IMG/VR virus record: IMGVR_UViG_3300038441_000216
Location: 1 to 26,796 of that record
Reading direction: 5' to 3' (one strand)
Length of the DNA: 26,796 bases
From: a virus
The position numbers and the translations under genes are program-made. A model generated the notes under the pieces. It did no database searches, was not told the DNA's origin, and was given only the letters and a program-made list of their open reading frames with translations. Of the stretch, positions 1,436 to 26,796 are shown in pieces (position 1 is the first letter of the stretch; each line of letters starts with the position of its first letter).

Positions 1436-1600
1436 ATGAGAGACAATCGGCTCGCCCCACCTTGGAACTGGCATCACGAGTTGCACCAGATCACTGGCGC
1501 GATAGCCCGACACGGCAGTAAGATCGACAAAGAGCTAGTCAAGCAATGGATCGAGGCAATGAAGAAGATCACCAAGTCAATGCGGGAGGAAATAAAATGA
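1436..1600 (+). CDS. Small 54-residue hypothetical protein
   Basis: ATG 1436 follows AGGTGA (1427-1432) at a short spacing, 7 bases after the preceding stop. The product is 54 residues: a Trp/His-rich start (LAPPWNWHHELHQITGAIA) and a lysine-rich helical C-terminus (ELVKQWIEAMKKITKSM). Its stop overlaps the start of the SLOG gene in an ATGA junction, and its last codons supply that gene's ribosome site (GGGAGGAA). No function recognised. The alternative GTG frame from 1429 gives a shorter product with no coupling and is not preferred. Confidence 0.6.
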   Translation: MRDNRLAPPWNWHHELHQITGAIARHGSKIDKELVKQWIEAMKKITKSMREEIK

Positions 1601-1947
1601 GACGGGTTCTGGTCTGCGGTGGGCGAGACTATACAAACAAGGAACTCTTGTATCGCAAGCTTGATGAGGCACATGAGTTTAGCTCTATCGTTTGTATTAT
1701 CTCCGGGATGGCTCCTGGAGCTGATACCTTGGCCGCTGAGTGGGCAAAAGAACGCGGCATAGAGTTAGCTCCATTTCCGGCAGACTGGAGCAAATACAGC
1801 CGCGCCGCAGGACCAATAAGAAACGCAAAGATGCTCGTTGAAGGGAAGCCTGATGTTGTTATGGCGTTTCCCGGCGACAAGGGCACTAAGGACATGATCA
1901 AGCGAGCGACCAAGGCAAAAATCCCCGTGGTTCAAATTCACATATGA
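1597..1947 (+). CDS. SLOG-domain protein, DUF2493/YspA-like
   Basis: The product is 116 residues. The start at 1597 (MRRVLVCGGRDYTN) is chosen over an upstream ATG at 1546 because GGGAGGAA precedes it and it overlaps the previous stop. Motifs match the DUF2493 (YspA-type) SLOG family: a first beta strand with VLVCGGRDYT, then IISGMAPGADTLAAEWA, then the FPADW segment, GPIRNAKML, and PDVVMAFPGDKGTKDMI. The family has a Rossmann-like fold and is expected to bind a nucleotide or a nucleotide-derived ligand; the ligand is not known for this group. Phages often carry such genes. The annotation is strong at family level and silent on physiological role. Confidence 0.88.
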   Translation: MRRVLVCGGRDYTNKELLYRKLDEAHEFSSIVCIISGMAPGADTLAAEWAKERGIELAPFPADWSKYSRAAGPIRNAKMLVEGKPDVVMAFPGDKGTKDMIKRATKAKIPVVQIHI

Positions 1948-1959
1948 GGAGAGACTACA

Positions 1960-2508
1960 ATGAATAGCTATTTGCGGATGGCGACGCTATCCGTTGCGCT
2001 ACTCTCGGCAACACCCAGCGATGCTGCTGTGTTGACGTATACCTATCAAGGACAGCCATTGTTTTACGGTTCAAATTCAACAGTAGGCTGGACTGGACAA
2101 TTTAGCATTGATACGGAATTCATGCCGCCAGGGAGAACACTTAGCAATGCGGTGTTCTCTTTCAATTGGGACGCGAACAATTTTAGACAAATGCTAGACG
2201 GTTTGTCACAGGTGGGAATCAGCATTAGTTATGGCCCGATGATCAACCCAGGCATTGGACGCGGACACTTCGCGATAATGTTCGACGTAGACCATCACAT
2301 ATCATCATGGGAGGGTTACAACACGTTCGGATACATCGATCCGTACACCATGAATGGAATTGATGGATGGTCCACAGGCTTTGCGCAAAGCATCGGTCCT
2401 GGTACTTGGACCGGTGGCCGTGCGGTTGCGGCCGTACCGTTACCAGCGACGTTGCCGTTGTTTGCTATTGCTCTTGGCGTAATCGGTCTAATTGGGAGGC
2501 GCAAATGA
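1960..2508 (+). CDS. Secreted protein with VPLPA-CTERM sorting tail
   Basis: The product is 182 residues. A GAGGAGA ribosome site precedes ATG 1960 by about 10 bases. Residues 1-22 look like a short signal peptide (hydrophobic MATLSVALLSA, cleavage near PSDA|A). The middle is a beta-rich extracellular-type domain. The C-terminus holds VPLPATLPLFAIALGVIGL followed by GRRK, which is the three-part PEP-CTERM layout: VPLPA signature, one membrane helix, basic end. In such families exosortase recognises the tail and the protein goes to the cell surface or extracellular matrix. The gene is embedded in the operon: 12 bases after the SLOG gene, and its stop overlaps the next start. The N-terminal domain is not recognised. 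Confidence 0.82.
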   Translation: MNSYLRMATLSVALLSATPSDAAVLTYTYQGQPLFYGSNSTVGWTGQFSIDTEFMPPGRTLSNAVFSFNWDANNFRQMLDGLSQVGISISYGPMINPGIGRGHFAIMFDVDHHISSWEGYNTFGYIDPYTMNGIDGWSTGFAQSIGPGTWTGGRAVAAVPLPATLPLFAIALGVIGLIGRRK

Positions 2509-2732
2509 AACTATATCCGTGGGATGAGGTTATCGAAAAGTGTGAATTGATCCTCGCACAAGGCGGAGCCATATATCAACAATTCAACTGCCAGCATTGC
2601 GGACGTAAACAAACAATGGACAAGCCAAATAGCTTTTACATTGCTGGGATATGCGAGGAGTGTGGAGGAACGACCGACATTAAAAAGAACGGGATGAATT
2701 ATATGATTCATCTTGGCGCTAAGGTGAAATAA
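2505..2732 (+). CDS. Zinc-ribbon protein, 75 residues
   Basis: ATG 2505 overlaps the stop of the VPLPA-CTERM gene (ATGA), so the longer frame from 2367 is not used. The product opens with MKLYPWDEVIEKCELILAQG, then has two Cys pairs, CQHC near residue 28 and CEEC near residue 50, spaced as in a four-cysteine zinc ribbon. No enzymatic domain is seen. It is the last gene of the plus-strand operon; the hairpin at 2737-2758 starts 4 bases after its stop. A nucleic-acid or protein-binding accessory role is plausible but not shown. Confidence 0.75.
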   Translation: MKLYPWDEVIEKCELILAQGGAIYQQFNCQHCGRKQTMDKPNSFYIAGICEECGGTTDIKKNGMNYMIHLGAKVK

Positions 2733-2765: not shown

Positions 2766-3572
2766 TTAAGCCGCAGCGAGAAGCTTCTGCTGTTGCTTAC
2801 GACGACGCAACTTCAGCATACCGAGTCCAGCGATGCCTGAACCAAAGAGCCAAACCGCACCAGGGATTGGTACTGCCGGCGCTGCTACCCCAGGCGTGAG
2901 GAAGAAGCTATCCGGCCCATCGTTCGTACCAGTGAGGCGCCCAAAGAACGCATACTGGTGGTTGGCGATGAGGCCAAGGGTCGTTAGCCCATTCAATGTG
3001 TAGTCTGGGAAGCCCGTCCCATTGTTGAGAGAAGGAAGGGCTATGCCATCATTTATGTCCGGCAAGTAAGATGCAAGGACCGCGAACGACCCAGGAGTCA
3101 CGTCAAGGAAGAAGAACGACTCCAAGGTCTGCGCACCCTGACCATTGGCTTGGTTCATATCGATGCCGATGCTGAACCCCGTGCTACCGGGAATGCCAGC
3201 CGCTGCATTGATCGCCGCTATGACAGCGATCAACTGCGTACCACTGTAGTTGACCGCTGAGATAGTATCGGTTCCAAGTAACGTGTCCCTGAGAATACCC
3301 GATGAAAAGTAAGTCTCAGAGGTCTGGTTGCCTTGGTTGCCGTAGTCCGTGTAACCAAAACCCAGCGCTGTGTTGGTTTGGTTTGGTTGGTTGGCGCCGC
3401 AGATGATACAAGGATTGTTCTGCGGTTGATTCCCAGCCGGTACGCCACCAAGCGTCAAGTTTGTGCCGCCGATAGTAAAGACTTGACCGCCAAGAGTGCG
3501 GGTAGCGGCTTGTGCTTGAAACGTAAAAGCTAGCAACGACGCTGCCACCGCAGCGCCAAGTAGAGTTTTCAT
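2766..3572 (-). CDS. Secreted PEP-CTERM protein (moron candidate)
   Basis: The product is 268 residues. The start is ATG 3572 rather than the frame opening at 3608, because AGAGGT lies just upstream and the protein then begins with a classic signal peptide, MKTLLGAAVAASLLAFTFQA, cleaved after QAQA. The mature part is Gly/Asn/Thr-rich with a CIIC pair near residue 55. The tail is VPIPGAVWLFGSGIAGLGML followed by KLRRRK, a PEP-CTERM signature of the V-P-x-P-x-A-x-W-L-F-G-S-G type: signature, membrane helix, Arg cluster. Nine extra residues (QQQKLLAAA) follow the usual basic end. The gene stands alone between two terminators, with palindromes upstream, which is how phage morons are arranged. Surface or matrix location is inferred from the family; its precise job is unknown. 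Confidence 0.85.
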   Translation of the reverse strand: MKTLLGAAVAASLLAFTFQAQAATRTLGGQVFTIGGTNLTLGGVPAGNQPQNNPCIICGANQPNQTNTALGFGYTDYGNQGNQTSETYFSSGILRDTLLGTDTISAVNYSGTQLIAVIAAINAAAGIPGSTGFSIGIDMNQANGQGAQTLESFFFLDVTPGSFAVLASYLPDINDGIALPSLNNGTGFPDYTLNGLTTLGLIANHQYAFFGRLTGTNDGPDSFFLTPGVAAPAVPIPGAVWLFGSGIAGLGMLKLRRRKQQQKLLAAA

Positions 3573-3592
3573 TGGAGTTACCTCTGGTGAGA

Positions 3593-3606
3593 GTTGTTCG
3601 AACAAC
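3593..3606. promoter_or_regulatory. 14-bp perfect palindrome, operator-like
   Basis: GTTGTTCGAACAAC is its own reverse complement and lies 20 bases upstream of the PEP-CTERM start, in the untranslated leader or promoter. It could bind a dimeric regulator. No other copy was noticed in the window. Confidence 0.45.
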
Positions 3607-3610
3607 ACAA

Positions 3611-3634
3611 GCCTATCACAAGGTTGTGACAGGC
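3611..3634. promoter_or_regulatory. 24-bp inverted repeat, operator-like
   Basis: Two 11-base arms (GCCTATCACAA and TTGTGACAGGC) pair with one mismatch that is a G-U wobble in RNA, around a 2-base centre. The tiny loop favours a DNA operator over an RNA hairpin. It lies 39-62 bases upstream of the PEP-CTERM start, where a promoter should be; no clear -35/-10 pair could be fixed. Confidence 0.5.
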
Positions 3635-3659
3635 GGTAGAAAACTTTTCATTGTAAAAC

Positions 3660-3690
3660 AAAAAAAAGCCCCAACGCTCGGTCAGGGCTA
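3660..3690 (-). terminator. Late-operon terminator
   Basis: On the minus strand AGCCC (3689-3685) pairs with GGGCT (3671-3667) around a 13-base loop and is followed by a run of T residues reaching about 3660. It closes the long structural and lysis operon 19 bases after the 33-residue gene, and insulates the PEP-CTERM cassette from it. Confidence 0.75.
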
Positions 3691-3708: not shown

Positions 3709-3810
3709 TTAGTAACTCTTAGAGTTGATCCATACAAGAAGGAGTATTACAAACACACCAAGCACGCCAACAACGCTTCCAAAGACAATCCAGAAGCCAA
3801 CATCATTCAT
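3709..3810 (-). CDS. 33-residue single-span membrane protein
   Basis: The ATG (3810-3808) overlaps the stop of the upstream 93-residue gene as ATGA. The product is 33 residues: MNDVGFW, one strongly hydrophobic helix (about residues 6-28), then a short INSKSY tail. It is the last gene before the terminator and directly follows two other membrane-protein genes and the endolysin, so a part in lysis (small holin or antiholin) is reasonable. It is too short to assign to a family. Confidence 0.6.
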   Translation of the reverse strand: MNDVGFWIVFGSVVGVLGVFVILLLVWINSKSY

Positions 3811-4088
3811 TTATTTCGGTCCCTCAAAATTTCATTGACGACGCGCTGTAGTTGTGCCTCCATGCTTCTGACGTGTTGTTCGAGGATTGTGATGCGTTCT
3901 TCCATCTTGCCCATTCGTGCAACAGAATATTCCGCACCACGCGTCTCCATTATTGCCACCCGTGTTTCTAGCTTCACAGAATAGGCAAGGATCGACGCCG
4001 CACCAGCGCCGATGGCGAGAAGCTGTGCGATCAAGAAATATATCAGCGTGGAATTTTCTTTCATCCACGACCGAACTTCCTCGACCAT
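3807..4088 (-). CDS. Membrane-anchored coiled-coil protein, holin-related candidate
   Basis: The product is 93 residues. Residues about 14-36 form one hydrophobic helix (STLIYFLIAQLLAIGAGAAS), followed by a long charged helix (METRGAEYSVARMGKMEERI onward) with heptad-like spacing, and an RDRNK end. The layout resembles XhlA- or DUF2730-like phage membrane proteins, which sit beside holins. Start and upstream stop share one base (TGATG); its own stop overlaps the 33-residue gene. With the 70-residue two-span protein and the endolysin it makes a lysis cassette; which protein forms the hole is not decided. Confidence 0.7.
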   Translation of the reverse strand: MVEEVRSWMKENSTLIYFLIAQLLAIGAGAASILAYSVKLETRVAIMETRGAEYSVARMGKMEERITILEQHVRSMEAQLQRVVNEILRDRNK

Positions 4089-4315: not shown

Positions 4316-5434
4316 TTATGAAACTGGTACGCCATTGACGGTTACTATTACATCGCCGATTATCTCGATATTGACGCGCGCCTCCACGACTGGCGGATGC
4401 GGCATCGGTCCTGGTATTGGCGGACGTGGCATTGGAGGTGGCATCGGTTCTGGTATTGGCGGCATAGGCATAGGTGGCCGCGTTGGCTCAGAGATTTCAC
4501 CGCTGAGTTGATCCGCCATAGCGGCGCATATCGGATTGAAGTTTAACTCATACTGCTTCGTGTCCGCCTCGCTGTCCACGAAACAAACCTCGAGCAACAC
4601 CGCCGGCGCTGATGTCTTGTTGAGGAAGAACAAATCGGTCCGCTTCTTTGGACCGCGATTGATAAAGCCACCTGATTCAGAGATGACCTTGGATAGCTCT
4701 GTCGCTAGGGATTGCTGTGTCACGTACAATACCTCCGTGCCCATCGGTTTATTTGTCGTCTTGTAGGCGTTGAAGTGAACAGATATGTCAAGTTGCCGCG
4801 TCCTGCTATTGTGAAAGTCAACAATGCGATTGAGGTTCTCATTTTGCGTCTTAGACACATCATCATGGAACGTGACGACATTGCAGCCGCGCATACGTAG
4901 CTCCAAGGCAAGCTTCTCCACAACGCTGCGCGCCTCGTCAACTTCATCGAGATAGCCAGAAGCACCACGGACATATTTCCCGTGTCCAGAGGACATCACG
5001 ATTGAATTATAAATACCCGTGTCGGTTTCATCTGGTAGTTCGTATGGGAAGGTCACTTCAACCTCATCGTCCGTCTCAATGCCCAATGCCGACATAAGCC
5101 CAGGGGACAAATCCGCAACACGGCCAGTATCCTTATGCGGTCCCCAGTCCGCTGGATAGGCCATAAACTCCTTGCCGGTCTTTGGCGAGCGTACCAACGC
5201 CATAATGCCGAGCAATTCATTCTTTGATGTCTCGTCATAGTCCCAACGACAGGCAACATAGAACTCCTCTGGGTTAAGCCGACGCGCTAGGCCTGTTGTG
5301 CCTGGAGGCTGATGCGGCAAGAATAGATGCGGCGCGTCAGCAACCTCATAGATGAACGCTAGGCCTTCGCTTGGCGATACTCCCGTATCACGGGGACCGC
5401 CAAAATGCGAACATTTGCCGGTGATTGTTCTCAT
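4316..5434 (-). CDS. Endolysin: RlpA-like domain fused to N-acetylmuramoyl-L-alanine amidase
   Basis: The product is 372 residues. ATG 5434 is chosen because it overlaps the upstream stop (ATGA); an in-frame start lies 7 codons further out. Residues about 65-130 look like an RlpA-type double-psi beta barrel: GKEFMAYPADWGP, then TGRVADLSPGLMSALGI and DDEVEV. Residues about 145-312 are an Amidase_3 zinc domain: SGHG (His151), LDEVDEA (Glu164), SVHFNA (His220) and the catalytic LLEVCF (Glu282). A Pro/Met-rich linker follows (about 317-348), then a roughly 22-residue beta-like end (IEIIGDVIVTVNGVPVS). It would cleave the amide between muramic acid and the stem peptide. No signal peptide is seen, so it should need the holin candidates downstream. 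Confidence 0.87.
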   Translation of the reverse strand: MRTITGKCSHFGGPRDTGVSPSEGLAFIYEVADAPHLFLPHQPPGTTGLARRLNPEEFYVACRWDYDETSKNELLGIMALVRSPKTGKEFMAYPADWGPHKDTGRVADLSPGLMSALGIETDDEVEVTFPYELPDETDTGIYNSIVMSSGHGKYVRGASGYLDEVDEARSVVEKLALELRMRGCNVVTFHDDVSKTQNENLNRIVDFHNSRTRQLDISVHFNAYKTTNKPMGTEVLYVTQQSLATELSKVISESGGFINRGPKKRTDLFFLNKTSAPAVLLEVCFVDSEADTKQYELNFNPICAAMADQLSGEISEPTRPPMPMPPIPEPMPPPMPRPPIPGPMPHPPVVEARVNIEIIGDVIVTVNGVPVS

Positions 5435-5964
5435 AGCTTTGCTGCCCGCAGCCACATGGCTTCCATTGCTTCTGGCGTTGTGTTTTCGGTATTGAGATAG
5501 GCTGCCAGACCTATTACAAATTCATGATCGATAGGGATGCTCTGCGCGCCAACAAAGAACATATTGGCCTCGAACTCCCGGTCATCCGGCACGTTATTAG
5601 ATTTGATGTAGTTGTCTATCTCGTTTGGCAGCGCGCCGGTCTTCATCGTACCCAGCGCGGAGTTCTGGGTTATCGAACCCATATTGGCGAGTTCTTGATA
5701 GAACTGGCGGCGCGAGATTGGCGGTGGCTTGAGCGGTGGCGGCGGGATGTAAGGCATCGTCACACCGCCCAGCGCAACCCATTCCTGGTACGCAATCCAG
5801 TCGGCATTGTCCGGATCATTAGGAATGACCGCACCGTCATTGCGGATCACCGCGGTCCCTTCCGCGTTGGCGAATGTGTACGTCACCTCTTGCGCCTTGA
5901 CCTCTGGCGGCGGGATCACAAACGGTGGCGTTGGCGGCATGAAGCTCCAGTCATCATTAGGCAT
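5431..5964 (-). CDS. Tail-fibre-associated small protein, function unknown
   Basis: The product is 177 residues. It overlaps the upstream fibre gene by 8 bases and the endolysin by 4. The N-terminus is Pro-rich (FMPPTPPFVIPPPEVK); a beta-rich part follows (VTYTFANAEGTAVIRNDGAV), then DNADWIAYQEWVALGG, a second Pro cluster, and a helical region starting ISRRQFYQELANMGSITQNS. The WIAYQEWVALGG plus ISRRQF layout is one I associate with small proteins encoded after tail fibres in alphaproteobacterial phages, some annotated as fibre assembly factors. A chaperone or fibre-cap role is inference. Confidence 0.6.
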   Translation of the reverse strand: MPNDDWSFMPPTPPFVIPPPEVKAQEVTYTFANAEGTAVIRNDGAVIPNDPDNADWIAYQEWVALGGVTMPYIPPPPLKPPPISRRQFYQELANMGSITQNSALGTMKTGALPNEIDNYIKSNNVPDDREFEANMFFVGAQSIPIDHEFVIGLAAYLNTENTTPEAMEAMWLRAAKL

Positions 5965-7423
5965 TCGGTAACCTCGCTTCTGCTTTCAGTGATGTGAGCC
6001 AAACAAATCCTGCGGTGCTTGTTAGATCGCCCAAAAGCTCGCACGAATATGGAGTGATATGGTTTGTTGTCGGATAACCAGCGTTGAACGTTGCAGAAGT
6101 TGCAGCAGTGATCGTCATTGTTGGCGCTATCCGCATATACGGATTAAAGTGATACGTTGCGCGACGATAAACGTTCGTTTCAATTGGATGTAGCCAAAGG
6201 CCACTAGGACCATACGTCTCATATCTGAGGTATCTTTGACACAGAAGGAGTTCCTCGTCATAAGGCCGCATCAGGTTTGGCAATTCATAATATGCCGGTA
6301 GCTGTGTGCCAGCGCTGATGAAAAGCGAGGTGATATAGAAAAAATCAGCAGCGGCAGGAATTAGATTTACCGAATTGGTGGTCTGCACTTTGTTAGTCGA
6401 TCCCCAGGCATTGAGAACCGATGCCGGCGAAGCTTCCTTGCCTGCAGCAAAAAATTCGATCCGCAATCCTACTCCATTGGTGATGTTCCACGCACCAATA
6501 GTATCTTCAGGAGGAACAGCGAAGCTAAAGTATCCCCAGAAGGGGCCAACCGTTATCTCATGGTAGTAGCAACGCGACCGATCATGATTTGATAATTTTA
6601 CGAATGCCACTCCTGGCTTCAGCGAGTAGTTCCAGAACGCGACCATGATCGGCTTGCCAGCGCCAGCACCAAGGCCCCAGCCGAAATGCTCAATGCGATA
6701 ACCCTCCGTCTTGTGACGCAATAACGCATAGTCCGTATTGGCAATTGTCGCCATTCCTGTGTTAGCATACATATAGATCGAGGTGTTAATTCCAGACAGT
6801 CCGCAGCCGCCCTGCGCGGAGGAGATGTTCGCCGTATTGGCAATTTGCGATACTTGCAAATCCCACATATCGACCGGGAACACGGCGGTGCCATTATTCG
6901 GAGCGGCGGCTGGCACGCCCATCTGCCAGACCCTTGAGCCACCATTGATGCAGATATTGTGGCGCGTGTCGAACGGCTCGCGGATGTCGCCTTGCGCGAC
7001 CCATGTTCCAGTCACCTTCAGCCACAACGTCCAAGATGGGGTCGTGGTATTTAACGCATAGTCCCCATCCTTGCCGATAGCCGGATCAGGAACACTCCCG
7101 CTGAACGTGTAGATGGTCCCGGCTTCGGCCATCTGCGACAGGAAGTCACGCAACACCACCTGGGTGATGGCGGGATCGTACCGCTGCCAAGAGTTCTTCA
7201 AGATCATGTAGACAGAGTTAGTTACCGTCGCTCCCGCCCAGGGAGCCATCAATGTGAGTTGGTTAAATCCTGCATTGACGCTGGAGATGTAGGCTTGGGT
7301 TGCACCGACCTGCAACGTGTCACCAATTATTACATCGACAAAGATCGCACCGGCGCTGGTAACCGTGGCCGAGCCATTGGTCACTGTCACCGTGCCGAGG
7401 TTGTAAATCTGACCGAGCGACAT
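5957..7423 (-). CDS. Tail fibre protein 3 (shared anchor plus lectin-like body)
   Basis: The product is 488 residues. ATG 7423 directly abuts the stop of the previous fibre gene, with GAGG six bases upstream. Residues 1-150 repeat the anchor module of its two upstream neighbours: MSLGQIYNLGTVTVTNGSAT, PWAGATV, ILKNSWQRYDPAIT, then GDYAL and WTLWLKVTGTWV. The body (about 150-488) resembles that of the middle fibre: YRIEHFGWG, SRCYYHE, NGVGLRIEFFAAGKE, ELPNLMRPYDEELLLCQRYL. The DEELLLCQRYL motif is common in phage fibre C-terminal domains. Likely receptor-binding or tail-decorating; the receptor is unknown. Confidence 0.8.
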   Translation of the reverse strand: MSLGQIYNLGTVTVTNGSATVTSAGAIFVDVIIGDTLQVGATQAYISSVNAGFNQLTLMAPWAGATVTNSVYMILKNSWQRYDPAITQVVLRDFLSQMAEAGTIYTFSGSVPDPAIGKDGDYALNTTTPSWTLWLKVTGTWVAQGDIREPFDTRHNICINGGSRVWQMGVPAAAPNNGTAVFPVDMWDLQVSQIANTANISSAQGGCGLSGINTSIYMYANTGMATIANTDYALLRHKTEGYRIEHFGWGLGAGAGKPIMVAFWNYSLKPGVAFVKLSNHDRSRCYYHEITVGPFWGYFSFAVPPEDTIGAWNITNGVGLRIEFFAAGKEASPASVLNAWGSTNKVQTTNSVNLIPAAADFFYITSLFISAGTQLPAYYELPNLMRPYDEELLLCQRYLRYETYGPSGLWLHPIETNVYRRATYHFNPYMRIAPTMTITAATSATFNAGYPTTNHITPYSCELLGDLTSTAGFVWLTSLKAEARLPNA

Positions 7424-8917
7424 TCACATCCTCGCGCTGACTTCTAGATTCCCAGCACTTTGATACGTGCCGATTGATCGACCAACTATAAGGGTTGATA
7501 AAGTTGAAACTGCGTCAATCTCAAGCAAAGCAGTGGTTGAGAAATTGTTGGTAATTGTAGCAATAGTTGTCGCTGTGCTACCGTCATAAACGCTGATTGG
7601 TGAAGTCAGTAGAACTGCCGGAGCAACCCGCATCGGTACTGGATGGAGGCAATTCATTCGACCGAGTGCGTTGCCGCCAGTACCGCTAACAACACCCTGT
7701 AACGGCGGAATGCCATTGTAGAAGTATCGCTGACAGATTGCTAACTCTTCATTATAAGGCCGCATCAGCTTCGGCAGATCACTCACGAGCGGCAGCTGCG
7801 TTCCAGCCGAGATGAATACTCCGGTGATCGCAAACGCATTACCAGCGGTATTAAATAAATTCGACGTTGCGTTGAGAGTCTGAACTTTGTTGAAGGTGCC
7901 CCAGGCATCGAGCGCCACGACCGGAGCTGTCTCCTTACCGTCGGCAAATATTTCAAACGTCAGACCGACACCGTTGCTCTTGTTCCAGGTACCAGCCGTG
8001 TCGGGCGGCACGTTGAAGGCGACATAGTTCCAATTGTTGACGATTGCGAACTCATGATAGTAACAGCGCGACTGATCGGCATTCGACAATTTGGCAAAGA
8101 TCGTTCCAGGTCCAAGCTGATTATAATAACGAAACGCCACGACAATCGGCGACGCAACACCGCCAGGCATCAATCCAGAATCACCGCCCCAGCCCCAATG
8201 GGCAATCCTATATCCCTCGATCTTGTGCCGGAATTTTACAAAGTCGCCGCTCGCTGGAGCTGAGAAATTTGCCGCATTGGAAAAATAACAGCACTGCGGA
8301 AACTCCCTGGATGCGGCAGTCTGCGTTGACCAGAAAGAAGCGGTGGCGTGCTTGAACATTCCCTCCCAGCCGTCAACGATATTCCGCGCCACGTTGTTAG
8401 TGAGAAAGTCAGTCGGGATTTGTCGCACCTCCATCGAGGTGTTCCACGCGACGTTCTGCTGGACGCCATGCGGCTCACGGAGATCGCCCTGTAGTACCCA
8501 GACGCCGCCAACCTTGAGCCATAGGGTCCAAGCGGGAGAATTAGTCCTCAGTGCGTAGTCACCATTGTTGCCGATGTCTGGGTTCGGTGTGGTCGCGACC
8601 GAGTAGATCACGCCCGCGGCATTGATCTTCTGCAGCATATCGCGGACCCATGATTGGGTGATCGCTGGATCGTATCGCTCCCAGGAGTTTTTCAATATCA
8701 TATATGCCGCGCCAGCGGCAGTGGTCCCGGCCCACGGGGCTTTCAAGGTGATAACCGTCAAGCCTGGATCGACACTCAGGATGAAAGCTTGCGTCGTGCC
8801 GACCTGCAGCGTATCGCCATTGATGACATCATTCCAGATAACTCCGGCACCCGTAACGGTGGCTGAGCCATTGGTAACAGTAACAGTACCTGTCGTGTAG
8901 ATTTGCCCGAGTGCCAT
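7424..8917 (-). CDS. Tail fibre protein 2 (shared anchor plus lectin-like body)
   Basis: The product is 497 residues. The start is ATG 8917 (MALGQIYTTG), not the upstream ATG at 8989, because it shares a base with the spike stop (TGATG) and matches the other two anchors. Residues 1-150 are the shared anchor, with PWAGTTAAGAAYMILKNSWE, then GDYALRTNSPAWTLWLKVGG. The body parallels the downstream fibre: YRIAHWGWG, SRCYYHEFAI, NGVGLTFEIFADGKE, LPKLMRPYNEELAICQRYF. The two bodies look like diverged duplicates, with the last 80 residues least alike. Receptor binding is inferred. Confidence 0.8.
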   Translation of the reverse strand: MALGQIYTTGTVTVTNGSATVTGAGVIWNDVINGDTLQVGTTQAFILSVDPGLTVITLKAPWAGTTAAGAAYMILKNSWERYDPAITQSWVRDMLQKINAAGVIYSVATTPNPDIGNNGDYALRTNSPAWTLWLKVGGVWVLQGDLREPHGVQQNVAWNTSMEVRQIPTDFLTNNVARNIVDGWEGMFKHATASFWSTQTAASREFPQCCYFSNAANFSAPASGDFVKFRHKIEGYRIAHWGWGGDSGLMPGGVASPIVVAFRYYNQLGPGTIFAKLSNADQSRCYYHEFAIVNNWNYVAFNVPPDTAGTWNKSNGVGLTFEIFADGKETAPVVALDAWGTFNKVQTLNATSNLFNTAGNAFAITGVFISAGTQLPLVSDLPKLMRPYNEELAICQRYFYNGIPPLQGVVSGTGGNALGRMNCLHPVPMRVAPAVLLTSPISVYDGSTATTIATITNNFSTTALLEIDAVSTLSTLIVGRSIGTYQSAGNLEVSARM

Positions 8918-11058
8918 CAGCCTAAAATCTCGTATTCGCCGCTCAGCCAGAACGTCCCAGCGCCAGTGAAGGTGCCATTGTAGTACCAAAAGATTGATTG
9001 AGTTGACCCAGAATACATCAGGCCTGTGAGATCAGCCGCGCCACCAGTCATGCCATGGAATGGCGTATAGTCCGCCGCCGGGAACGGCAGGTAAAATCTT
9101 ATCCAGGCTCCTGCCGATCCAACATTGGTGATGTCGAGTTGATACCGCCACTTGCATGTTTTTCCAACAAGGGCGTAGTAAAAATCATTCCTGCCAATCC
9201 CTCCAAGCGCCCCAACGCCGGAATCAACTGGCGGATGATACAGAGTCCATGATGGCCGGAAGAAGTTTGGATTGACCTGGATGTTCGCTCCAGAGGCAAT
9301 GTTATTTATATTAGTCACGTTGCCATAATAGTCATTTCCCTCGACATAGACGTAGGCAGTGCTGCCTTCAAAATGCAGTCCCTCATTGTTCTGACCATAC
9401 CCGCCACACGGCCCAATCCGGTTCGAATTGATTCGCGTTCCTCCATTACCGAATGGAAGTGCCGACACGTTGGAGAGAAAGATACCATAGGCGTTGCCAC
9501 CGATGCTGCAATTGTTAATGCCGAGATTTTTGACGTTATTGCCGATGGCGATAACTCCAGAATGGGTATTGCCCATCATCTGGCAATTGTTAAAAGTTAT
9601 TCCTTCAACGAGAGACGGCGCAGTAGCTGAGAGCGCGACACCATGCTGCGACCCAGTCATGATATTGCAATCGGTGAAGGTGCTGCGGCCAACCGCCCCA
9701 CTCCCACCAGGAGCCATGTAGACATTAACCTCTGAACCATATTCAAACGTGCATCCCTGTACCGTGACCCGATTGACGTTCTGACCCGAGCCAGGATCAA
9801 ACAGCATGCAATAGCGCGCGTGATTAAAAACGCAATCGGTGATGCTTGTCTTGTCAGGATTGTGCCGCATTAATATTTGCGCGTAGGGCAGCGGCGTTGC
9901 TGGACCGTCGCAATAGACCTTATCAATGAAGATGGTGCCTTGGGCATTGATCATCACGATACCGTAGCCATTCCCAACGGTACTATCAATAGTGCCGTCC
10001 TTGATGGTGAGATAGTAGCCTGCGTTGTCGATCTGGATGCCGATCCACGCACCAGCAATAAGAAAATCCTGGATCGTGATGGCATTGCCGGTGGTCATGA
10101 GATTGATGCCGCCAGTGCGTGCTACCGCGTTGACACATGCGATGTCCCTAAAATACTGAAAGCCCTGCAGATTGAATTGATGATTAGTAGCGTGCGTCAT
10201 CTTGAAGAACGAACGGCGAGCACCATCGCCATACACATTCACACCGGACGGTACAGTGATCACATTGGAATGACGATACACGCCAGATGGCAAGTAGGCA
10301 TTAAGCCCCATCGCATTGCAGTAGTTCACCCAATTGTTGAAGAACGTCTGGTTGTCGGTGCTGTCGTCACGCTTGGCTCCAACCGACAACGCGCTCAGAT
10401 ATTGCTTATTGCAGTATTGCCACCATGCACCATCTGCCGACTGAAAACCAAAATGACCGGCGGGTAATCCCCCAACCTTCTTGAACTCAATCCGCTCGCT
10501 GTCGCCAACGGCATAATAACCCGCAATGTTGATCATCTGGATCGACGGCGCGATGGTCGCCGCTTGTGCCAACGCCATCGTATCGTAGGACGATGTTGGT
10601 GGCGCGGAGCCACCGGATGGAGGTGCCTGGACAACCCAAGCGCCAGAAACCTTCAGCCACACAGTCCATGGCGAACTGGTTCGTAGCGCATAGTCACCTT
10701 CATTGCCAATAGCAGGATCAGGAACATGTCCCGGTTCAACGGCATAGAACACACCAGCATCTTCGAGCTTAAGCATAAACTCCCGCAGCATCACCTGGGT
10801 GATCGAGACAACATACCGCTCCCATGACATCTTCAGGATCAAGTAAGCTGCGCCAGATGCTGTGGTCCCGGCCCAAGGTGCCGCGAGCGTAATCACCGTG
10901 AATGTTGCATCAACACTCGACACGATAGAAACATATGGACCGACCTGGATGAAGTCGCCAATCAACACATCCGACCAGATCACCCCTGCGCCGGTGACGG
11001 TCGTGGACCCATTGGTAACGGTGACCGTGCCGACATTGTAGAATTGCCCGAGTGCCAT
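8917..11058 (-). CDS. Tailspike with beta-helix, possible depolymerase
   Basis: The product is 713 residues. AGGAAA lies about 9 bases before ATG 11058. Residues 1-145 are the anchor shared with the two downstream fibres (MALGQFYNVGTVTVTNGSTT). A Pro/Gly/Ser linker follows (about 146-160). Residues 226-279 match the start of a pectate-lyase-superfamily right-handed beta helix: VGAKRDDSTDNQTFFNNWV, YLPSGVYRHSNVITVPSGV, then VYGDG. Up to about 590 there are repeated Asn/Gly/Ile-rich coils typical of such spikes (FNNCQMMGN, INNCSIGGNAYGIFL). The last 120 residues are a separate beta-rich tip. Family knowledge suggests a polysaccharide-binding or -cleaving spike; catalytic residues cannot be fixed by eye. 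Confidence 0.82.
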   Translation of the reverse strand: MALGQFYNVGTVTVTNGSTTVTGAGVIWSDVLIGDFIQVGPYVSIVSSVDATFTVITLAAPWAGTTASGAAYLILKMSWERYVVSITQVMLREFMLKLEDAGVFYAVEPGHVPDPAIGNEGDYALRTSSPWTVWLKVSGAWVVQAPPSGGSAPPTSSYDTMALAQAATIAPSIQMINIAGYYAVGDSERIEFKKVGGLPAGHFGFQSADGAWWQYCNKQYLSALSVGAKRDDSTDNQTFFNNWVNYCNAMGLNAYLPSGVYRHSNVITVPSGVNVYGDGARRSFFKMTHATNHQFNLQGFQYFRDIACVNAVARTGGINLMTTGNAITIQDFLIAGAWIGIQIDNAGYYLTIKDGTIDSTVGNGYGIVMINAQGTIFIDKVYCDGPATPLPYAQILMRHNPDKTSITDCVFNHARYCMLFDPGSGQNVNRVTVQGCTFEYGSEVNVYMAPGGSGAVGRSTFTDCNIMTGSQHGVALSATAPSLVEGITFNNCQMMGNTHSGVIAIGNNVKNLGINNCSIGGNAYGIFLSNVSALPFGNGGTRINSNRIGPCGGYGQNNEGLHFEGSTAYVYVEGNDYYGNVTNINNIASGANIQVNPNFFRPSWTLYHPPVDSGVGALGGIGRNDFYYALVGKTCKWRYQLDITNVGSAGAWIRFYLPFPAADYTPFHGMTGGAADLTGLMYSGSTQSIFWYYNGTFTGAGTFWLSGEYEILG

Positions 11059-23301: not shown

Positions 23302-26300
23302 TCAACTCGCTTTTTGTAGTACGGAGACAGTTTCATCTTCTATCAATACATAAGCCGTGCGTTGCTCAAATCTTACCAATGCTATTTGACTTTCATCTAT
23401 AACATCTGCAACATGATCCGCGGCAATCTCGCTGGGGACGATAAAATCAAGAGAGAATATACCAGCACGAGCAGTAGCAGAAGCTCCAATCAAGAAGCCC
23501 GTAACATCAAACCTAAAGAGATTACCAGCAACCTTTGTCGCTTGTGCTCCGCCAAGAATAACACCACGGATAAGAGTACCAACTTGCGCCTGCGCTTGCG
23601 CACCTTGAATTGCGAATGCCGATACCCGCGCAAAGATCGCTCCAGCAGTAACTTGAACTTGCGCGCCAGTTAATACCGCGGTGATCGCCTGGGATATTGT
23701 AAACAAACCAGCCGAAGCAGTAGCTGAAGCACCAGTAAGCGATACGACCTTAGCAGTTGGCGCTGTCAACACTCCAGCAAAAGTTGTAACGAATGCGCCT
23801 TGTATATTGACGCTTATGGTACTTGCCGCTGCCGATGTGATCGTCCCAGCGCTCGCTGTGACTTGTGCGCCAGTCAAAGCAAAGATATCAGAGACGCCAA
23901 ACGCTCCAGCGACAGTCGAAGCAGATACGCCAGTAAGCGTAGCAACCTTAGTAGTCAGCGCCGCGATAGCTCCAGCTTGCGCTGCCGCTTCAGCACCAGT
24001 AAGCGTCGATGGCCTTGCAGCAAGAGAGATAATACCAGCAGATGCCGTAGCTTGTACGCCTGGTACAGCAACGTTTGCCGTGCTTGCAGTATTTACAACG
24101 AGCGAGCCAAATTGCGCCGTGACTTGTGCGCCGACAAACGCAAAGACATCGCCTATGCCAAACGTACCAGCAGAAGCAGTAGCTTGTGCACCCGTAAGCG
24201 CAACGAGTTGAGCGACTGACGGTGCTATTGTTCCGGCTTGCGCCGTTGCTTGTGCACCGATCAGCACCTTGCTGATGGGTTCACCAAGAACACCAGCGGA
24301 TATGGTCGATTGCGCGCCAGTCAGCGAAACAAATGTCGTGCTTACTGTGGTTGCTGTTATCGTACCGGACAGTGCCGTGACTTGCGCGCCAGTCAGAGCA
24401 AACGTATCACTCAGCTTAAATACGCCAGCGGTCGTAATCGCCTGCGCACCAGTAAATGTAACCGCTACAGCTTTCGTGACCGAGATACTACCAGGCATAG
24501 CAGTCGCTTGCGCGCCAACGATACCAACAGGTTGTATCTTAGCAACAGTCAAGCTACCCGGAGACGCAGTACATGATGCTCCAGGCAGCGTCTTGCTAAT
24601 GGTCTCCCTTATGACGCCAGCAGAAGCCGCAACTTGAATGCCTGGAACTGCAACATTAGTAACAGTCGAGACAGCCGAGACACCCTTCAGCGCGGCCCAG
24701 GAAACATAGACGCGCGCCAAAATAATAGCGAACTGGAAGTTGCCAGCGTAGTAAGTGCAACCCGCTCCGGTAATGGCTTCAGGAATAGACTTGCCAATGA
24801 CACCGGCGGATGATGTTGCTTGAACACCAATTAACGGAAGAGACTTAACAAATACGCCAGCGGAACTGGTAACAGAGACACCAGGAACCGCGACAAGCTT
24901 CGCTGCCGTTGTCGTCAGCGTGCCCGCCGACATCGTTGCTTGCGCACCAGCCAAGAAAACGCGCTGCTGCGCGAGCGATCCTGCTGACGCCGTAACCGAT
25001 GCGCCAGTCAGATTTACTGAAGTGGTAGTAACAGCAATCGACTTGCCATCCCAGGTGGTATAGCCGCTCGCCGGTGGTCCACCTAAGAATGTGCCATCAA
25101 AGTTTGCATTCATCACTTCGCCATTGAGGCGAAGATCAATTGCCAGCGACAAACGACCACCACCAAGCGCCGAGATACTAAAGGTATTCCAAATACCATT
25201 CTGCGTGATGTTACGAACGGAAACAGTAGCAGCCGACGTATCAGCGGAGACAGAATACCAATCACCGGCAGCAATAACTTTGTCGTGCGTTCCTACGTTA
25301 GTGCCGCCAACATAAACAGGTCTGCCTGAACCAGTCCAGAAACCAATGCTGTTGTTATCCCAACCTAAATAAGCGGCAAGTGGCAATACCGATGCCGACG
25401 CATTCGCAACACCGATAGCACTCGAAGGACCGCCACCGCCGCCAGTAAACCGAACCTCAGCATAAAGCTTAGTGGTACCAACCGCATTGAGAGTTGATAA
25501 TGCCAATCTATCAGAAAAATCTCCACTAAGCATAGTCGCTGTCAGATAATTGTTTGACAGGAAGATGGTTGGATAAGTTCGATCCGGATTAAAGAACGTA
25601 GCAGGATACGCACCCAACGTCCCAGCAGACATCGTCACGGACGCGCCGGGCAGATTGACTGCGCCTGTTATTGCCTTACCATCCCAAGTGGAATAACCAC
25701 TCGCGGGTGGCGTCCCTAAAAACGTCCCGTCAAAGTTTACAGTAATTGCATCAAATTGATTGCCAATGGTAGCAGCAAAGCAAATTTCACCACTAGTTAT
25801 ACTAGAGATGGAAGCTGTAGCAGACCAACTGCCTGAATCTGTGATGTTACGAAACTGGATCGTGCCCGCGGTACGATCAACCGCAATACCAACCCAATCA
25901 CCAGCACCAACCGCTGGTGAAACGACAACACCAGTATCAACACCATGATAAACAGCAGCACCATAAAGTCCAACTGAATTAGTGCTGTTACCAATATAAT
26001 CGAAGCCACTTGTGACATCAAAAGTAGGTACCGCAACACCAACGCCTAAAGTTCCAGTCAGAACATCAAGATGAACTTCCGCATAGACCTTGGTGCTGCC
26101 GTGCGTCGGCAGAGAAAGAACACTCGCCAAAGTTCCTGCGTTGTCAGGCCTCGTTGCCGTCAGATAATTATTTGACAATACGAGAGTAGAAAACTTGCGA
26201 TCCGGATTAAGGATCGTGCCAGGATAGCCACGCATACTCCCGGCAGACATCGTGACCGATGCGCCAGTGAAATTAACAACGCTCGTGAGCGCCTTGCCGT

Positions 26301-26796
26301 CCCAAGTGGTATAGTTTGTAGCGGGTGGCTCTCCTAGAAAAGTGCCGTTGCAATTTATAATTATTGAACGATTTATCAGAAGCAAAGAGAGTTGAAGAAA
26401 GAATGGAGCACTGCCCAAAGCGGAGATGGAAAAAGGATACCAAATGCCACTTTGCGTGATGTTTCTGAAATAAATAAGTGATCCAGGAATATCAACGGCA
26501 ATAGCAATCCAATCACCGACCGTAGGAGCAGGGCTGAACGACCCTACAGATGCACTGTTTTGATAAACGTTACCATTGTAAAGACCAATTGAATCATTGT
26601 TGCCGCCCGGAAAATTACTAGTGACCGATGCGCTATTGCCAATACCTAAGCCAATACCAGAAGATCCAGAGGAGCCAGAAGCAACTTGCACCTCGGCATA
26701 GAGCTTGGTAGTGCCGGTCGCATTTCGAATTGAGAACGTTGAGCGGTCATTGAAATCTTGTGTCGTCTTGGTTGCTGTCAGATAATTGTTTGACAG
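23302..26796 (-). CDS. Giant repeat-rich fibre-like structural protein (N-terminus outside window)
   Basis: The frame is open to the window edge, giving at least 1164 residues. Three parts are visible. First, three tandem 206-residue units of concanavalin/SPRY-like type, with LSNNYLTAT at each seam, YAEV, GDWVGIAVD, FRNIT, then FDGTFLG and TWDGKA. Second, about 24 short units with consensus LTGAQATASAGTL. Third, a 50-residue non-repeat end (DESQIALVRFEQRTAYVLIE) resembling the C-terminus of short proteins that lie between capsid and connector genes in related phages. Size and repeats suggest a long surface fibre or head decoration with carbohydrate-binding modules. No enzymatic motif is seen. 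The true start is beyond 26796. Confidence 0.8.
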   Translation of the reverse strand: MSNNYLTATKTTQDFNDRSTFSIRNATGTTKLYAEVQVASGSSGSSGIGLGIGNSASVTSNFPGGNNDSIGLYNGNVYQNSASVGSFSPAPTVGDWIAIAVDIPGSLIYFRNITQSGIWYPFSISALGSAPFFLQLSLLLINRSIIINCNGTFLGEPPATNYTTWDGKALTSVVNFTGASVTMSAGSMRGYPGTILNPDRKFSTLVLSNNYLTATRPDNAGTLASVLSLPTHGSTKVYAEVHLDVLTGTLGVGVAVPTFDVTSGFDYIGNSTNSVGLYGAAVYHGVDTGVVVSPAVGAGDWVGIAVDRTAGTIQFRNITDSGSWSATASISSITSGEICFAATIGNQFDAITVNFDGTFLGTPPASGYSTWDGKAITGAVNLPGASVTMSAGTLGAYPATFFNPDRTYPTIFLSNNYLTATMLSGDFSDRLALSTLNAVGTTKLYAEVRFTGGGGGPSSAIGVANASASVLPLAAYLGWDNNSIGFWTGSGRPVYVGGTNVGTHDKVIAAGDWYSVSADTSAATVSVRNITQNGIWNTFSISALGGGRLSLAIDLRLNGEVMNANFDGTFLGGPPASGYTTWDGKSIAVTTTSVNLTGASVTASAGSLAQQRVFLAGAQATMSAGTLTTTAAKLVAVPGVSVTSSAGVFVKSLPLIGVQATSSAGVIGKSIPEAITGAGCTYYAGNFQFAIILARVYVSWAALKGVSAVSTVTNVAVPGIQVAASAGVIRETISKTLPGASCTASPGSLTVAKIQPVGIVGAQATAMPGSISVTKAVAVTFTGAQAITTAGVFKLSDTFALTGAQVTALSGTITATTVSTTFVSLTGAQSTISAGVLGEPISKVLIGAQATAQAGTIAPSVAQLVALTGAQATASAGTFGIGDVFAFVGAQVTAQFGSLVVNTASTANVAVPGVQATASAGIISLAARPSTLTGAEAAAQAGAIAALTTKVATLTGVSASTVAGAFGVSDIFALTGAQVTASAGTITSAAASTISVNIQGAFVTTFAGVLTAPTAKVVSLTGASATASAGLFTISQAITAVLTGAQVQVTAGAIFARVSAFAIQGAQAQAQVGTLIRGVILGGAQATKVAGNLFRFDVTGFLIGASATARAGIFSLDFIVPSEIAADHVADVIDESQIALVRFEQRTAYVLIEDETVSVLQKAS
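23455..25017 (-). repeat. About 24 short coding repeats with 4-unit super-repeat
   Basis: The encoded consensus is LTGAQATASAGTL, repeated every 17-35 residues with variable linkers. A higher-order pattern is visible: the block beginning F-x-x-S/G-D-x-F-A followed by GAQVT occurs three times. Its matching plus-strand landmark GTGACTTGYGCGCC starts at 23858, 24119 and 24377, spacings of 261 and 258 bases (87 and 86 codons), each equal to four short units. Confidence 0.75.
25018..26796 (-). repeat. 618-bp tandem coding repeats (SPRY/ConA-like units)
   Basis: The seam sequence GTCAGATAATTNTTTGACAR (plus strand) lies at 25541-25560, 26159-26178 and 26777-26796, both spacings being exactly 618 bases (206 codons). 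Units share YAEV, IAVD, FRNIT, GTFLG and WDGK motifs at matching places but differ elsewhere, so they are old in-frame duplications. The last unit runs from 25560 to about 25018, where the short-repeat region begins. Confidence 0.8.

Follow-up and report, generated by a model that had tools for sequence, protein, structure and literature searches.

Phages alter the surfaces of their hosts with lipoproteins and with modifying enzymes. The locus described here raises the question of whether a phage may also reach that surface through the exosortase pathway of its host, and if so, what the displayed protein would do there.

The window gene and its neighbours

The locus lies in a tailed phage represented by a 26.8-kb IMG/VR virus record (the window, by which we mean the whole stretch of 26,796 nucleotides analysed) that carries head, neck, J-type fibre and endolysin genes; its fibre protein is nearest to those of rhizobial phages, at about 30%. 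The gene at issue, its leader and its neighbours are as follows.

1960–2508, plus strand: second exosortase-tailed secreted protein (gene 2), 182 aa, tail VPLPATLPLFAIALGVIGLIGRRK, PF07589; convergent to the window gene
2505–2732, plus strand: 75-aa zinc-ribbon-like protein downstream of gene 2; CxxC...CxxC in the sequence, zinc-ribbon matches sub-threshold
2737–2758, no strand: bidirectional terminator between the two convergent units (fold −19.3 kcal/mol, z −4.3)
2766–3572, minus strand: window gene, coding sequence of payload family 1 (family 1); 268 aa from the ATG at 3572, secreted, exosortase-type C-terminal tail
2793–2873, minus strand: exosortase-type sorting tail VPIPGAVWLFGSGIAGLGMLKLRRRK, from sorting-model scores and bare-tail plasmid matches
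3399–3410, minus strand: invariant CxxC (C55, C58) in a PCIICGANQP motif, from the family alignment
3507–3572, minus strand: signal peptide MKTLLGAAVAASLLAFTFQAQA, AxA-type end without a lipobox Cys, from the sequence
3580–3585, minus strand: ribosome-binding site AGAGGT, from the sequence; conserved in loci L002 and L004
3593–3606, no strand: perfect 14-bp palindrome GTTGTTCGAACAAC in the 5′ leader, from the sequence; conserved
3611–3634, minus strand: 10-bp hairpin in the 5′ leader (z −4.9), conserved; terminator-like or regulatory candidate
3667–3689, minus strand: intrinsic terminator upstream of the window gene, ending the lysis transcript (fold −12.8 kcal/mol, z −2.8)
3807–4088, minus strand: holin-like protein (PHROG 1296, weak, E 0.006)
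4316–5455, minus strand: endolysin, Amidase_3, from domain and PHROG searches

The 268-residue reading frame and signal peptide reported in an initial annotation of this DNA are present in the sequence, as are the VPIPGAVWLFGSG tail and its Arg cluster (the protein ends VPIPGAVWLFGSG...RRRK); structure prediction places an N-terminal helix at residues 5–14, within the signal peptide. Haft et al. defined PEP-CTERM proteins by a tripartite tail plus a signal peptide (PMC1569441), and the architecture of the window protein, as read from its sequence, fits this definition. On the PEP-CTERM models to which the annotation had pointed, the window gene by itself is marginal: against TIGR02595 (PEP-CTERM; cut-off 16) the tail scored 12.8 bits in one search and 17.2 in another, and its 18.8 bits against TIGR03370 (VPLPA-CTERM) fell below the cut-off of 25.35. 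The tails of family 1 relatives outscore that of the window gene on the sorting models. Searched against plasmids, the bare window tail had its best matches in Proteobacteria, chiefly alphaproteobacteria, among proteins annotated as PEP-CTERM or VPLPA-CTERM; the PEPxxWA tail matches Sphingomonadales. A lipoprotein was ruled out by the lipobox criterion taken from the Llp and Cor lipoproteins, because neither the window protein nor the family alignment has a Cys where the signal peptide ends.

The gene does follow the lysis genes, endolysin and then holin-like, and the terminators described on each side of it are both real by folding energy and conservation: both are kept in the nearest relatives of the window, and the stem of the upstream one has a compensatory change relative to L002. 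The ribosome site is likewise in place, and the two upstream palindromes of the initial annotation correspond to the leader hairpin and the perfect palindrome listed above. Palindrome GTTGTTCGAACAAC, which has one exact copy within the window, might together with the hairpin form a regulator site. The idea of an independent transcription unit fared less well, since no sigma-70-like promoter was found in the 94 bases from the upstream terminator to the ATG.

Gene 2 had escaped the initial annotation. Convergent with the family 1 gene, it passes the Pfam model PF07589 (23.7 bits, cut-off 20.7) and has relatives at L015, L016 (74%) and L017 (30%). The L017 gene, which directly follows an integrase-like gene, has the signal peptide and tail in common with gene 2 and a different middle. 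Elsewhere in the window, positions 1597–1947 (plus strand) encode a YspA/cpYpsA-related SLOG protein (PF10686, E 5e-23), and a very long repetitive reading frame with GAQATASAGT-type repeats (23302–26796, minus strand) runs open off the contig end.

A virus-restricted family in unrelated phages

By its distribution in sequence collections, family 1 is a large virus-restricted family, previously undescribed in open-licence papers. A search of viral genomes for the same protein, as the initial annotation had proposed, was run on IMG/VR with the protein as query and then with alignments, and returned 14, 105 and finally 206 relatives in viral contigs; these 206 places belong to several unrelated phage lineages. 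The family was not found in 72,556 plasmids, in 50,697 phage records or, with two pattern sets of exact short conserved peptides that remote relatives could escape, in 84,980 bacterial and archaeal genomes. The single match of the genome scan (L149) is an antisense frame with a chance match to CLICGANQ. No Pfam, NCBIfam or PHROG model convincingly matches the ectodomain, the models matching the tail instead; Pfam CBM models gave no match to the family, nor did a PDB sequence search with its profile. PHROG profiles also failed to match gene 2, the second payload family described below and the other second exosortase-tailed genes.

The carriers are true, mutually unrelated phages, with an HK97-type terminase, three portal families, a major head protein, endolysin and J-type fibre; others have T7-like replication genes and DNA polymerase A, or RecE/integrase. 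Phage hallmark or replication genes lie near the family 1 gene in 61 of 80 loci, and the possibility of a misclassified bacterial contig was rejected on the hallmark genes and the genome scans. The core is under purifying selection (dN/dS 0.02–0.21 by the Nei–Gojobori method). Diversifying selection on the ectodomain, an idea prompted by low identity inside conserved flanks, was rejected because dN/dS is low and the pattern fits recombination. At L005 (10001–10798) the family 1 gene is frameshifted exactly in the tail, through either assembly error or decay.

Among 50 carrier records no exosortase was found over the cut-off, in agreement with the earlier proposal that the cargo depends on the exosortase of the host; we infer that a host enzyme processes the protein and that the displayed product is located at the surface. 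A PF09721 match in G009 was disregarded, being below the cut-off and interrupted by an internal stop. As a clue to the host, a tRNA was sought in 43 loci and found in none.

Exchange of tails and ectodomains

By inspection, all family 1 members with a complete start have a signal peptide with a basic start, a hydrophobic helix and an AxA end. Every intact member examined ends in a tail of the sorting type. A script detected the tripartite form (P-x-P, membrane helix, basic cluster) in 61 of 62 distinct proteins, and inspection found it in 24 of 24 others, L005 being left out of the count for its frameshifted tail. These tails form at least three classes, VPLPAxxLF, PEPxxW and PxPxxGAGLPxL, and match the sorting models TIGR02595, TIGR03370, NF035944 and PF07589 to varying degree, the last being passed by 16 of the 50 carrier records. 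The commonest tail class, PGPIVGAGLPGL, has no match among NCBIfam sorting models and no plasmid counterpart. The tail at L185 reads VPGPTVGAVPEPATWAMM..., as if one tail type had replaced another.

Comparison of tails with cores shows both tail-class switching and core recombination. The core tree contains 10 tail-class changes, and no fewer than 4 to 7 per class are required by the branches with good support. L002 and the window have tail and flanks in common, yet a clade of their cores is rejected (AU p 0.002, a value to be taken as a guide, the pair having been picked after a first view of the tree). In some pairs, for example L116 and L140, tail and core are of different ages by the Nei–Gojobori method.

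The ectodomain, too, is exchangeable: alignment of related loci shows one slot where it has been replaced and the signal peptide and tail on either side of it have stayed constant. L004 and L231 are about 75–86% identical across the start of the gene and its signal peptide, and once more beyond the ectodomain, where the tail begins; the ectodomains themselves are unrelated, and L005 and L095 show the same swap relative to L231. The contig of L004 and L231 (IMGVR_UViG_3300021082_000020; 94,958 bases) has two DNA polymerase A genes, separated by about 47 kb, and is therefore probably two related phage genomes joined; the two loci were treated as two genomes sharing a tail by descent and not counted as a paired-gene tail match.

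The replacing ectodomain, payload 2 (DETGIGGTGN...FRIDV; L231 at 6947–7633, and L233–L312), occurs at no fewer than 89 viral places in IMG/VR. Its proteins carry signal peptides and the same tail classes as family 1, tail identity between the two families reaching 95%, and the two payloads themselves show no relation (hhalign probability 0.1). Among the family 1 records, 36 contain just one phage genome; payload 2 is absent from all of these, several of which are fragments. Further second exosortase-tailed genes are present at L082, at L126 and in the window with L003/L014, and in the three phages with two such genes both tails are of one class each time. As a control, 1.06 Mb from 63 phage loci without family 1 contained no gene with a signal peptide plus tail. 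At L126 the family 1 start is preceded, at a distance of 4 bases, by the end of a third payload type (9511–9996; 161 aa, same tail class), for which no relatives were found. Where the initial annotation saw one cassette, these comparisons describe a system that recurs, is modular and has two or more large payload families unrelated to each other.

Predicted structures give both payloads a beta-sandwich, in payload 1 with a C-terminal helix at 248–267 (pLDDT 84) and in payload 2 with a C-terminal membrane helix (pLDDT 87). Payload 1 has no significant structural match, its lectin- and CBM-like matches (Z 6.2) being within background. The predicted fold of payload 2 is like that of CBM29 (Foldseek E 6e-4, Z 8.1) and related beta-sandwiches, with no sequence similarity shown. 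Carbohydrate binding by payload 2 may be taken as a lead, and for payload 1 would be a guess.

A proposed role at the host surface

Three known systems are relevant to the function of the displayed protein. The PEP-CTERM/exosortase (EpsH) system has the same signal peptide and C-terminal P-x-P, membrane helix and basic cluster; here, in contrast, the substrates are phage-encoded without an exosortase, the ectodomain is not found in bacterial genomes, and tails and ectodomains are exchanged. The PepA floc protein of Zoogloea and Aquincola (NF033554) is likewise secreted with an exosortase-type tail, but the similarity of the window protein to it is weak, mainly at the tail, and far below the cut-off. 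Finally, Llp of phage T5 is a precedent for a phage surface protein that blocks adsorption (PMC9586334). The T5 Llp and Cor lipoproteins resemble the proteins described here in being phage-encoded and exported to the surface, with a proposed block on secondary adsorption; family 1, however, lacks a lipobox, would be anchored by an exosortase-type tail, and has a much larger beta-sandwich ectodomain and a putative function.

We suggest, tentatively and at somewhat less than an even chance, that the gene belongs to a modular, host-exosortase-dependent display cassette of the phage, which most likely masks or modifies the cell surface for superinfection exclusion. A phage ectodomain would carry a Sec signal peptide at one end and, at the other, an exosortase sorting tail suited to the host; during infection the protein would be made, exported and kept in the inner membrane by its tail, until the host exosortase cut it and transferred it to the outer surface or the exopolysaccharide layer. 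There it would most likely cover or modify a surface polysaccharide or receptor, so that sister phages would fail to adsorb to the infected cell and progeny would not be stuck on debris. Both superinfection exclusion and carbohydrate binding are, we infer, plausible properties of such a protein. The carriers include integrase-bearing and DNA-polymerase-bearing phages, which favours a benefit during infection. The lysogenic conversion envisaged by the initial annotation is not established: the window and its nearest relative have no integrase, and the carriers are mixed in having integrase or DNA polymerase A. Several observations weigh against the proposal: the commonest tail class lacks both an NCBIfam model match and a plasmid counterpart, the structural matches of payload 1 stay within background, and the strong conservation of the core suits one unchanging ligand more than receptors that vary among unrelated phages. 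A possible but rather doubtful extension of the scheme is that phages of exosortase-bearing bacteria have such a system in common: the host-matched signal peptide and tail would serve as a constant frame for exchanging ectodomains that are unrelated, confined to viruses and able to bind carbohydrate, and each phage would thereby gain a surface 'colour' that excludes competitors.

In our ranking, by analogy with T5 Llp, a block on adsorption would be the likeliest role, and effects on the matrix of the PepA kind would come second. The displayed beta-sandwich might cross-link exopolysaccharide and thereby make infected or lysogenic cells aggregate, grow as biofilm or retain debris. This is unlikely on balance, although PepA, a host PEP-CTERM protein, is involved in floc formation (PMC9850573), Haft et al. 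tied PEP-CTERM to EPS producers (PMC1569441), payload 2 is CBM-like and some carriers have an integrase; it is hard to see what carriers that encode DNA polymerase A, and in which no integrase was detected, would gain from aggregation ahead of lysis, and no sequence similarity to PepA exceeds the PepA cut-off. An accessory part in lysis, with the tail-anchored protein upsetting the envelope or placing a load on the exosortase pathway, would suit the position of the gene after the endolysin genes in the window, L002, L003, L014 and L130/L132. We consider it improbable: about 15 loci have the gene after the terminase gene instead, T7-like carriers have it between the replication and structural modules, and a conserved 195-residue ectodomain would be superfluous for such a role.

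The location inside the packaging/head operon of many carriers, 21–27 bases past the terminase, recalls a virion component, that is, a head or tail decoration with incidental hydrophobic ends. Such a decoration is very improbable, because the AxA-ended signal peptide, the Arg-cluster sorting tail and the CxxC all point to export, there is no PHROG match, and the virions of the carriers are unrelated. PEP-CTERM proteins are typical of bacteria (PMC1569441), but a host gene on misclassified contigs, or an unselected passenger gene, is hardly credible for a family absent from the genomes scanned, close to hallmark or replication genes at most loci and with dN/dS well below 1.

Finally, we note that the initial annotation considered phage cargo of this kind a little-described strategy, and in open-licence papers (subscription papers and preprints being outside the scope) no description of phage use of the exosortase pathway for display was found. 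The conserved core of family 1 offers a defined protein for tests of surface function, and the tails might report the host exosortase type for viruses of unassigned host. With about 300 viral occurrences and two unrelated payload families, our results suggest that this display route is common in uncultivated viruses.
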